A stretch of 35,759 bases of DNA. Origin: Betaproteobacteria bacterium (GTDB lineage Bacteria; Verrucomicrobiota; Verrucomicrobiia; Methylacidiphilales; UBA1321). Under the pieces are notes generated by a model. The model was not told where the DNA came from. It saw only the letters and a list, made by a program, of their open reading frames with translations, and did no database searches. The translations under genes and the position numbers were made by a program. The stretch is from the NCBI GenBank assembly GCA_903970275.1, contig CAJCIA010000179.1, positions 1 to 35,759 on the forward strand, written 5' to 3'. Of this stretch, positions 27,859 through 34,075 are shown piece by piece. The first letter of the stretch is position 1. The number at the start of each line of letters is the position of its first letter.

Positions 27859-28986
27859 ATGCCCCTTGCGCCTTCCACCAGCCATACGGACGAAATCAAC
27901 GCCCGCATCCTGGCCGTGTCGGAGGACCGTATTGCCGGCTTCGTGCGCGACCCGATGGGCGAGATCGCGCGGCGCTGCGAGCTGCCGGTGGAGACGGTAA
28001 TCGAGCGCATCCGCGCCATGCTGCGCGGTGGCACGATCCGGCGCGTGCGCCAGACGCTCATGGCCACCGACCTCGCGCCCGGTGCGCTCGTGGCGTGGGA
28101 AGTCGATGCGGACAAGCTCGACGCCGCGTTCGACTTCATGTTCCAGCAGGACCCGTTTTCCGGCCACGTGGTCGTGCGCTCCACCGACACGCCGAGCAGC
28201 GGCTCGCAGTACCGGCTGTGGACCACGCTGAAAGTCCCGCACGGCTTTGCCATGAAGAAACACGCGGACTACCTGCGCGACCGTGTCGGCGCCCGCAGCT
28301 ACCGGCTCATGCCGGCCAAGGGCATCTTCGCGCTCGGCGTCGGCCACACGCGGCGCCAGGCGATGGAGCTGGGCGCGAAGTCCGACGCGCCCGCCGAGAT
28401 GCACACGGTGCGGCAGGTAAAGCTAGGCGACCTTGAATGGCGCGTCCTCACCGCGCTCAAGCGCGAGTTCGAGCCGGAGGAAATCGTCGAAGCCATCTGG
28501 GTCGCGCGCGCGAAGGAGGCCGATTTGCCGCTGCCCGTCTTCTACGAAATCGCCGAGAGCCTCAACCAGCGCCAGGTCATCGGCCGTTTTTCCACGTTCC
28601 TCGAGCACGTAAAACCCACCGCGACGGGCGAGCGCGTCACACGCTTCAACGCGCTTTTTCATTGGGCCGTGCCGCCCGGCCGCGAGCTGGAGGCGGGCCG
28701 CGAAATCGGCCGGCACCACATCCTCACCCACTGCTACTGGCGCGAAGGCGGCCCGGAATTCCAGAACGTGAACATCATGGCCGTGGCCCACGGCACGGAC
28801 CGCGACCGCGTCCGCGCCCACAAGGCCGCCATCGACGACCATCTGCGTGCGATCGACATGCCCTTCACCTACACCAACGTTTTCTGGGGCGGCCGCAGCG
28901 AAATCAAGCCGTCCGAGATCGCGCCTGCTGCTTACGTCGAGTGGTGTCGCGCAAACACGATCGATCCCGACAGCATGCGCGGTTAA
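27859..28986 (+). CDS. Two-domain AhbA/AhbB-like (siroheme decarboxylase family) Lrp-type protein
   Basis: Siroheme decarboxylases (AhbA/AhbB, NirD/L/G/H) are AsnC/Lrp-like proteins that remove two acetate carboxyls from siroheme. This 375-residue protein contains two such units in one chain. Unit 1 (about 10-175) has a winged-helix-like start (DPMGEIARRCELPVETVIER) and SGHVVVRSTD followed by YRLWTTLKVP. Unit 2 (about 187-375) has DLEWRVLTALKREFEP and ILTHCYWREGG then VNIMAVAHG, close to the family motif 'SHCY-R...YNLF-M-HG'. Annotation pipelines would often call it an Lrp/AsnC regulator. No heme or nitrite-reduction genes are adjacent. ATG 27859 lies 56 bases after the repeat array. Enzyme versus regulator is unresolved. 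Confidence 0.72.
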   Translation: MPLAPSTSHTDEINARILAVSEDRIAGFVRDPMGEIARRCELPVETVIERIRAMLRGGTIRRVRQTLMATDLAPGALVAWEVDADKLDAAFDFMFQQDPFSGHVVVRSTDTPSSGSQYRLWTTLKVPHGFAMKKHADYLRDRVGARSYRLMPAKGIFALGVGHTRRQAMELGAKSDAPAEMHTVRQVKLGDLEWRVLTALKREFEPEEIVEAIWVARAKEADLPLPVFYEIAESLNQRQVIGRFSTFLEHVKPTATGERVTRFNALFHWAVPPGRELEAGREIGRHHILTHCYWREGGPEFQNVNIMAVAHGTDRDRVRAHKAAIDDHLRAIDMPFTYTNVFWGGRSEIKPSEIAPAAYVEWCRANTIDPDSMRG

Positions 28987-29197: not shown

Positions 29198-30625
29198 CTA
29201 CTCCGCGTCCCATCCCGCAAGCACAATTTCGGCAGTGCCCCGGTCCGTCAGGCCATCGCTGCCCGGATCCAGCGTGCCCGGCCCGCGCAAAAAGAATCCC
29301 CGTTTCAAGTCGTCGTACAAAGCGAGCGGAACTGCGGGCGAGCCATCCGCCCACGTAAATAAACGCGCCGCTGTGACCGCAGGTCCTGGCGCGCCTCGAC
29401 GCAGCGTGGCCACCACGCCATTGGCGCCCAGCGTCAACAGGTCGCGCCCGTTTGCCGCATCTGCCAGTGGACGGCCGGGCACCTCACCCTGATAGCGGCC
29501 CTGCACATCGAAAAACCAAACGCGATCCGGAACATCCCAACTTCCCGAGTGAATATAGACATCGTGCGATTGGGGCCAGAAGCCAAAGCCTCCTTCGCCC
29601 TGCGAGATGACGGCTTGAAATTTTGACGGCTTCAGCGAATAGGCCGGCCAGCCCACGCCGATACCGTGGCCCGCAGCGTCCCGGCTCAGCGTCAGCGCGC
29701 CGTCATCACTGTCGATGAAAAGCGACGTGAACATGCCGCGATACGCCATGCTGCGCGGGTAGACGAGCCGCCACATCTCCGTGTCGTTACGCAGCGGCAC
29801 GATCTTCCGTGCCGGAGTAATCAACGCCAGGCCGCGGGCCCAATCGGTCCCGAAAGAGACCAGCCATTCCCGGCCGGTGCGGTCCGCACGCGCCCAGCCG
29901 CAGGAAGGCTCCGGGCTGTCGGATGCGTATGCCGGCTGGTTCAGACGGTTGATTGCCGCCACGGCGTCCCGGCCCGGAAGTTCCCAGCGCGGGTCGCCCT
30001 GCTGATCGAAAAGCGTTAACTGTCGGTCATTTGCCCAAAGGTCCGTTGTGATCCAGCGGCCGTCGGGCAGGAAGGCGCCCAGCCAGTCGCGGCCGTTTCC
30101 ATCCCTTCGCGGCACGTGGACGTCGGCCAGCACCCGCCCCTTCGCGTCAAAGAGCCAGCCTTCCTTCGGAGTCCAAGCCTCAAAGCGGGTGGCCGCGATC
30201 CGCCGAAAAACGGGAATATCCGGCGCGTCCATTTCATCACGGTGGACACCCGGCAGGACAAAAACCGGCCGAAGACGTATCTTCGACGCAGGTGGAATCG
30301 GCAGCACCTTTTGCGGCAATCCATCCCGGGCCACTTCATCGGCAATCTCCACCGGCTGCTCGCCGAAATCATGGATCACGGCTTCCACCAATTGCGCGGC
30401 CACGTCGCTTCGCTTCGCGGGATCATGTTCCGTCTGCCATTGCGCGTGCAGGAGCTCGACCTGCGCTCGCGATTCGGAAACCCCGTGATCGGTCGAAGAC
30501 TCCATTTTCACCATCGCGTGGTAGGCCTCCGGCGAGGTCGTGTCGGCGGCCGGCGTGGCTGCCATGGCCGAAAAGACAGCTCCGGCGGCCGTGAGAAAAG
30601 CCGGCAGAGCGAGGCTTCTCGTCAT
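29198..30625 (-). CDS. Secreted protein of unknown function, propeller-like
   Basis: I do not recognise a family. The 475-residue precursor has a Sec signal peptide (MTRSLALPAFLTAAGAVFSA, likely cut after AMA near residue 23). The first 100 residues are helical and charged. From about 130 the sequence has repeated short beta-type blocks such as GWLFDAKGRVLADVHVP, RWITTDLWANDRQLTLFDQQ, KIVPLRNDTEMWRLV and RVWFFDVQGRYQGEVPG, in which 'F-D--G' turns recur, as in beta-propeller proteins. No membrane anchor or sorting tag is seen. It lies 12 bases after the sensor-kinase-like gene on the same strand, so it is probably co-transcribed and could be its target or ligand-related partner. Confidence 0.6.
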   Translation of the reverse strand: MTRSLALPAFLTAAGAVFSAMAATPAADTTSPEAYHAMVKMESSTDHGVSESRAQVELLHAQWQTEHDPAKRSDVAAQLVEAVIHDFGEQPVEIADEVARDGLPQKVLPIPPASKIRLRPVFVLPGVHRDEMDAPDIPVFRRIAATRFEAWTPKEGWLFDAKGRVLADVHVPRRDGNGRDWLGAFLPDGRWITTDLWANDRQLTLFDQQGDPRWELPGRDAVAAINRLNQPAYASDSPEPSCGWARADRTGREWLVSFGTDWARGLALITPARKIVPLRNDTEMWRLVYPRSMAYRGMFTSLFIDSDDGALTLSRDAAGHGIGVGWPAYSLKPSKFQAVISQGEGGFGFWPQSHDVYIHSGSWDVPDRVWFFDVQGRYQGEVPGRPLADAANGRDLLTLGANGVVATLRRGAPGPAVTAARLFTWADGSPAVPLALYDDLKRGFFLRGPGTLDPGSDGLTDRGTAEIVLAGWDAE

Positions 30626-30637
30626 GTCAGGCGGGTC

Positions 30638-32431
30638 TTACGCCTTTTCCGCGATGACGCCTTCGATCACCTGCTGCAGGCGCTCGAGCTTGTAGGGCTT
30701 TTCCAACACGGCGGTAAAGCCGAACTTGCGGTGGTCCTTCATGCAGGGATGATCGAGATGGCCGCTGCTGGCGATGATCTTCGCCTGGGGATCGATCTGC
30801 CGGATGGTGGGCGCGGCTTCCTGCCCGCCGATGCCCTTGGGAATGATGAGGTCCATCATGACCACGTCGAACGGCTCGCCCTGCGTCTTGGCCTTGGTGA
30901 AGGCCGCGATGGCGTGCGCGCCGTCGGTGGTGGTGGTCACGGTATAGCCGAGGTGGGTCAGCATGCGGCTGACGATATCGAGGATCATCTGCTCGTCGTC
31001 CATGAGCAGGATGCGGCGCATCGGCATGGTCGCCGCGGTGGCCAGCCGGCCGGAACGCGTGGTGGAGGAATCGGTGGCCGGTGCAGGCAGGTAAAGATGA
31101 AGCGTGGTGCCGACGCCCGGCGTGGATTGCGCGGTGAGCGTGCCGCCCATCCGCTGCACGGCCGAGAGCGCGGTGGCCAGGCCGAGCCCCTTGGCGCCGG
31201 GCCGCGTGGTGAAAGAGGGCTCGAAGGCGCGGGCCAGCGTCCGCTCGGACATGCCGTGGCCCTGATCCTGGATGGCAAGATGGATGTAGGAGCCGCTCTT
31301 GAGCACCAGCGGTGCCTGGCGCGCCACGGTGTCGGCGGGCAGCACCTCGGCGATCACGCGCACGACGCCGCGGTCCATCGATTGGATCGAGTTGGTCACG
31401 ATGTTGCGCAGCGCCAGGGTAAAGGCCTCAACGTCGATTTCCGGCTGCGGCAGGCGGCGCGGGAAGAGGTATTCCGCGCGCACCAGCGTGCCGCGCAGCA
31501 GGCCGTTCACGACATCCTGGATCAGCGGCTCGAGCGCGACGCGCGTGGCGCCCTGCTCGGAGTTGCCGGAAAGCGTGCCCACCTGCTCGAGGATGGTGCG
31601 CGCCTGCTTCAGCGCGCGGTCGATTTCGTTGAGCCGCGCGGAAACGGGATTCTGCGCACCGGCAAGACTCTTTGCGATGGTCAGGCTGCCGAAGGCGCCG
31701 GTCAGCACCTGGTCGAGCTCGCGCACCATCGAGCCAGTCAGGTCCGCGCTGCCCGACTGACGGGTGGCGAGCGCCAGTGCTTCGGCCATGGCCTTTTTTT
31801 CGGTTTGGTCGCGCGCGGCCAGCACGATCGACTCGACGCGTCCGGCGGAATTGGAAATGGGAAATAGGCTGGCCTGCAGATCGGCCCACGAGCCGTCCGG
31901 CCGGCGGGCGCGCAGCTCGAGCACCTGTCCTTCGCCCGACTGGATGGTGGCGTCCAGCGCCTCGGCGCACCGCGCGGCGTCGTCGGGATGCACGTCGGCG
32001 AAAAGGGAGGTGCCGTTGCCCTCGCGCTCGCCCGGCTGGCGCAGCAGTCGCAGGTAGACGGAGTTATTCCAGATGCGGCGACCCTGGGCGTCTCCGATGG
32101 CCAGCGCGTCGCCGACATGCTCGGTCACCGCCTTGAAGAGGCGGCGCTGGCCGTTCCACGCCGTTTCCGCACGGGCCCACTGGATCAGGCTGTGCCGCGC
32201 CTCCTGCAGCTGGGCTTGGAGCTCGTCGAATTCCGTGGGCAACGGTGGCAGTTCCGGCTCGGCTTCCGCGGCCGGCTCGAGGCGGGAGAGGCGCTGGGAA
32301 AGCAGCGGGCTGTTCGGCGTGGCGCGATGCCGCTCGCCGCTGGGCGCCGGTTCCGGGGGCACGACGCCATCGCTGGGGGTGGCGGAAGGCAAAGGCGAAT
32401 CCACGGCTTGAAGGAACGTCGAAAAGGACAA
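30638..32431 (-). CDS. Hybrid sensor-kinase-like protein lacking the phosphoacceptor His
   Basis: This 597-residue soluble protein has a PAS domain (about 97-210, with a PAC-like end LELRARRPDGSWADLQASLFP). A dimerisation helical region follows at about 225-290, then an HATPase domain (N-box Asn343/Asn347, G1 DQGHGM at 389-394, F-box FEPSFTT, G2 GAKGLGLA) and a C-terminal receiver (Asp478/Asp479, phosphoacceptor Asp527, Lys578). In PAS kinases of this type the H-box reads like 'AHDFNNLL'; here the aligned segment is SMVRELDQVLT, with Arg237 in place of His. The start is TTG 32429-32431, since no ATG lies nearby in frame. It is translated upstream of a secreted protein. It could signal allosterically or through a partner kinase. 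Confidence 0.8.
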   Translation of the reverse strand: MSFSTFLQAVDSPLPSATPSDGVVPPEPAPSGERHRATPNSPLLSQRLSRLEPAAEAEPELPPLPTEFDELQAQLQEARHSLIQWARAETAWNGQRRLFKAVTEHVGDALAIGDAQGRRIWNNSVYLRLLRQPGEREGNGTSLFADVHPDDAARCAEALDATIQSGEGQVLELRARRPDGSWADLQASLFPISNSAGRVESIVLAARDQTEKKAMAEALALATRQSGSADLTGSMVRELDQVLTGAFGSLTIAKSLAGAQNPVSARLNEIDRALKQARTILEQVGTLSGNSEQGATRVALEPLIQDVVNGLLRGTLVRAEYLFPRRLPQPEIDVEAFTLALRNIVTNSIQSMDRGVVRVIAEVLPADTVARQAPLVLKSGSYIHLAIQDQGHGMSERTLARAFEPSFTTRPGAKGLGLATALSAVQRMGGTLTAQSTPGVGTTLHLYLPAPATDSSTTRSGRLATAATMPMRRILLMDDEQMILDIVSRMLTHLGYTVTTTTDGAHAIAAFTKAKTQGEPFDVVMMDLIIPKGIGGQEAAPTIRQIDPQAKIIASSGHLDHPCMKDHRKFGFTAVLEKPYKLERLQQVIEGVIAEKA

Positions 32432-33112: not shown

Positions 33113-34075
<963 letters not shown>

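Follow-up and report, generated by a model that had tools for sequence, protein, structure and literature searches.

The gene at 30638..32431 on the minus strand of the window, the 35,759-nucleotide stretch of DNA analysed here, encodes what is almost certainly a hybrid pseudo-histidine kinase of the order PAS-DHp-CA-REC, in which Arg237 (codon CGC, 31721..31723, minus strand) occupies the position of the phosphoacceptor His. It belongs to a small clade which is, as far as sampled, restricted to the window's order and in which the phosphosite is, judged from its sequences, unusually labile. Pseudo-histidine kinases are already known, and the family of the window protein is an undescribed member family as far as the literature was searched; a literature search on histidine kinases of the Methylacidiphilales gave no match.

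The protein comprises 597 amino acids when read from a TTG start, its true start being uncertain within an open frame of 604 codons. The PAS domain (residues 104-213, 31793..32122; Pfam PAS_4 and PAS_3), the CA (HATPase_c) domain (residues 334-451, 31079..31432) and the receiver domain (Response_reg, residues 474-589, 30665..31012), all on the minus strand, exceed the Pfam cut-off. Residues 210-287 (31571..31804, minus strand) form a DHp-like helical hairpin according to the alignment and to AlphaFold2, which predicts helices at 210-257 and 263-287 with moderate local confidence (whole-protein pLDDT 81.7); with a pTM of 0.38 the domain arrangement was left uninterpreted. The alignment confirms the claim of the initial annotation that the N (N343/N347), G1 (DQGHGM), F (FEPSFTT) and G2 (GLGL) boxes as well as Asp527 and Lys578 of the receiver are intact. 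What an active hybrid kinase of the HisKA type requires is present in these four boxes and in the Asp/Lys pair, and is missing at the H-box, where Arg237 stands and where the HisKA model of Pfam finds no match in this protein even at E<=1. As no stretch of the protein is sufficiently hydrophobic for a membrane anchor, it is probably cytoplasmic and soluble.

Three routes place Arg237 in the His column. It aligns with the His of 23 canonical AHDFNN kinases; a phmmer comparison with the FixL kinase module (solved chimera 8a7f) lays MVRELDQ of the window protein over LAHELNQ, with Arg237 on the H-box His; and the orthologue L020/L025 (AMAHDFDQILT) matches HisKA at the same place, if weakly (19 bits). 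The proposed replacement of the H-box His at 31721-31723 was thus found to be correct in coordinates, frame and codon. The initial annotation had also raised the question of a nearby His that could serve instead, and none is present in residues 205-330 of the window protein, nor was an alternative His column found to be conserved across the orthologues. A His at column 260 of the DHp, which is common to several orthologues, was considered and rejected, this position being Gln in the window protein and Thr in L016. With the architecture of a histidine kinase, Arg in the His column, an otherwise intact protein and no other phosphoacceptor His in the DHp, the window protein is very probably a pseudokinase.

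Relatives were searched in the family, the order and the class as well as in the collection genome_contigs. The five orthologues from the same genus all adjoin a cysK-type gene (PALP family), which in the window lies upstream on the same strand (33113..34075, minus strand). As the order cysK then kinase on one strand is held at all six loci of the genus, orthology is confirmed; cysK is used here as an orthology marker, and a functional link to the kinase is putative. The answer to whether Arg237 is conserved among orthologues is a divided one. Four of the five carry Arg (L016, CGT; L017, CGA; L018 and L021, CGC), and L020 has His (CAC), which corresponds in part to an observation named beforehand as one that would speak against the reading. 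A sequencing error at Arg237, the other such objection, is rejected, since independent genomes carry Arg with differing codons (CGA, CGC and CGT). Beyond the genus the column holds Lys (L019), Glu (L048 and L049, the latter being a long branch whose alignment at this column is unsure), His (L046 and L047) or Gln. The Gln is found in a broken second family copy in the genome of L047 (L082, 553-2198, minus strand), which is spread over two frames.

In a tree calculated without the H-box columns, the 11 intact members of the clade are split from 23 canonical hybrid kinases with a support of 100/100. Nine of the twelve clade members lack the His (Arg in five, Lys in one, Glu in two and Gln in one), their boxes and receiver staying intact, and none of the 23 canonical outgroup kinases lacks it. 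By this comparison the common state of the family is the absence of His, not Arg as such. From the states in this column it follows that His was lost repeatedly, the Arg/Lys part, the Glu part and the Gln copy being the minimum. Among the more distant members (L046, L047, L048, L049 and L019), even those with His carry H-boxes eroded to forms such as HEFDS and HEFKN where HDFNN is usual, which suggests a looser constraint around the site throughout the family. One further genome of the genus (G005, 94% complete) yielded no kinase copy at E<=1e-50, and the gene may be absent from this nearly complete genome.

Loss of the His is rare elsewhere. A published survey found it missing in 0.9% of HisKA domains (PMC12632262). 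The window's genome contains 36 HATPase_c matches of at least 59 bits, among them GyrB, the window protein and one match cut by the end of its contig (C110) before the DHp, and all of the other 33 kinases checked keep their His. One of these 33 is a histidine-kinase gene seemingly split by a frame change (L114, contig C93, 884-2382, minus strand), the H-box part of which retains the His. A variable phosphosite is known from the chloroplast sensor kinase (CSK) of plants and green algae, in which the His is replaced variously by lineage (Tyr or Gln, Glu) and nucleotide binding is kept (PMC5054060); unlike the window protein, CSK is a eukaryotic organelle protein with modified CA motifs, and no comparable receiver has been reported in it.

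The His of L020 could reflect either a single late loss in its relatives or a reversion. An equal-rates model places Arg at the genus ancestor (0.975), by which the His of L020 would be a reversion. A tree that unites the five Arg proteins in a single clade, with L020 having simply retained its His, nevertheless withstands the AU test (p 0.123, log-likelihood 8.6 lower), and the species are left unresolved by the tree of the adjacent cysK gene. A single late loss is thus also compatible with the data, and reversion was not accepted as proven. It appears rather unlikely that Arg is ancestral in the genus and that one species regained His by one transition (CAC/CGC) with all else kept. If this were true, the pseudokinase state would be reversible, and one DHp-CA-receiver machine would work in both modes.

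Between the five orthologues of the genus, the window protein left aside, identity amounts to 84% in DHp helix 1, 74% in the CA domain, 86% in the receiver and 53% in the PAS domain. For L017 and L018, both of which carry Arg, dN/dS is 0.039 in the DHp and 0.041 in the CA domain. As DHp helix 1 is about as conserved as the receiver and these ratios lie near 0.04, the docking helix and the ATP site appear to be maintained without the His. The constraint on DHp and CA in Arg-bearing orthologues also argues against decay and upholds the initial annotation in its view of a pseudo-histidine kinase as opposed to a simply decaying gene. The window protein itself is more divergent, sharing with the five orthologues 39% identity in DHp helix 1, 57% in CA, 75% in the receiver and 40% in PAS. 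Its dN/dS values of 0.58-0.74 in the DHp versus about 0.21 in the receiver are unreliable as ratios with dS near saturation, the contrast between the domains alone being of note, and this suggests that the DHp was relaxed or re-shaped in the window's lineage.

The surroundings of the gene offer little beyond cysK. Near the six loci of the genus, neither a partner kinase nor an HPt protein or a regulator was found to be conserved. A gene for a secreted protein without a Pfam or NCBIfam match (29198-30625, minus strand) starts 12 bases after the stop codon of the kinase and may be co-transcribed with it in the window's genome. Homologues with 34-50% identity occur in seven other genomes of the order, by which the protein is a conserved family of unknown function. 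A role as functional partner of the kinase is not supported and a conserved operon is rejected, as none of the five orthologues has the secreted protein for a neighbour; none of its homologues stands beside a kinase orthologue, those of G003 and G007 being located on other contigs. Farther on, a convergent gene (27859-28986, plus strand) contains two AsnC_trans_reg2 stretches and a weak match to the HTH of siroheme decarboxylase (NirDL-like). This AsnC/siroheme-decarboxylase-like gene is common to the window, L073 and L076, and is 82% identical to the neighbours of two orthologues.

The best explanation of these observations, tentative as it is, is that the hybrid pseudo-histidine kinase constitutes a signal-controlled phosphate sink acting on its own receiver. 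By established chemistry, a protein lacking this His would have no phosphotransfer route to Asp527, as it could neither autophosphorylate at the H-box nor hand phosphate on to its own receiver in the normal way (PMC12632262). Asp527 would have to obtain its phosphate from elsewhere, be it from another kinase, an HPt protein or acetyl phosphate. The signal perceived by the PAS domain and the bound nucleotide would determine whether the DHp-CA core is docked on the receiver or released from it, and in the most likely step the core would speed the dephosphorylation of the receiver via the retained Gln at H+4. Such a phosphatase mechanism of the DHp-CA core is plausible and is put forward with reserve. 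An acidic residue at H+1 and Gln at H+4 are retained in all six same-genus proteins, the Gln being compatible with a phosphatase without kinase activity and not diagnostic of one, since the FixL kinase module has Gln at H+4, too. In the Deinococcus bacteriophytochrome DrBphP, a HisKA-type ATP-dependent phosphatase without kinase activity, Gln at this position preserves the activity (PMC8292422); DrBphP differs from the window protein in keeping its phosphoacceptor His and in having no acidic H+1. The His is not essential for the phosphatase activity of HisKA proteins (PMC12632262). It does, however, contribute to the reaction of HK853 (PMC5727384; PMC12632262), and Arg at this site may hinder the reaction, which counts against a phosphatase. 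The closest solved DHp-CA module by fold belongs to CckA, which has the same order PAS-DHp-CA-REC and provides the best DHp-CA and CA matches in fold and sequence (5idj, 5idm). CckA is, in contrast, a true bifunctional kinase with its His, and the similarity of the window protein to the CckA model of NCBIfam is far below the cut-off. Further points against a phosphate sink are the His of L020, by which kinase activity would persist or have returned in one species, the stronger divergence of the window DHp than of its receiver, and the lack of an HPt protein or partner kinase nearby.

A second possibility that deserves serious attention is an allosteric regulator with no enzymatic role as a kinase or a phosphatase. 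Its DHp-CA core would, with nucleotide bound, read a phosphorylated receiver, its own or that of a partner, and control another protein by binding. There is precedent in DivL of Caulobacter, a PAS-containing HisKA-type protein with Tyr550 at the His position, which is active neither as a kinase nor as a phosphatase and uses a conserved docking surface to bind DivK~P (PMC4211667), and in NifL of Azotobacter, a histidine-kinase-like anti-activator of the architecture PAS-H-GHKL, whose GHKL domain binds ADP and which regulates by protein contact (PMC8219145). The NifL-NifA complex (9qq6) is among the fold matches, and in the window family the DHp surface and the CA domain are likewise conserved without the His. 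Neither of the two has a C-terminal receiver in cis, however. DivL has N-terminal PAS repeats instead of the single PAS domain found here, carries Tyr and not Arg, and shows weak ATP binding, in contrast to the window protein with its intact ATP boxes; its profile match to the window protein covers the general kinase core alone (4q20). NifL acts on a dedicated partner, NifA, and the window locus has no NifA-like neighbour; apart from cysK no conserved partner gene stands beside the orthologues.

The strong purifying selection on the ATP site would also fit a mixed dimer in which a partner kinase receives phosphate on its His in trans from the intact CA domain or is modulated by it. A truncated ChrS pseudokinase acts via the paralogous kinase HrrS, and the native versions of the two proteins heterodimerise (PMC9491836), and RetS inhibits GacS through heterodimer formation (PMC12189002). 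Such an arrangement is nevertheless improbable here, as the window's genome contains no close His-bearing paralogue (the best is 27% identical) and each same-genus genome has one strong copy at the thresholds used. If the kinase were relaxed or beginning to decay in the window's lineage, with the receiver alone still in use, this would account for the low identity and the raised dN/dS of the window DHp, and the broken second copy in another genome points the same way. Such a course is quite improbable in view of the open frame, the intact CA boxes and receiver residues, the strong constraint on the Arg orthologues and the fact that Arg is shared and not private to the window, the raised ratios being weakened by the near saturation of dS. 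Hardly to be expected, finally, is a protein that is still a kinase and places the phosphate elsewhere, on a Ser for instance or on a His not belonging to the H-box. KdpD was reported to be a tandem serine histidine kinase (PMC11018627), and the acidic H+1 residue is retained here, but the lack of any His in the DHp region and of a conserved alternative column stands against it.

What is understood of pseudo-histidine kinases derives from a small number of well-studied cases. The present family is a natural comparison set, in which one syntenic locus provides Arg and His versions of the same hybrid protein and related genera add versions with Lys, Glu and Gln. With this set one could test directly what a histidine-kinase core with an intact ATP site and a receiver of its own does once it can no longer be phosphorylated, and whether this state is reversible.
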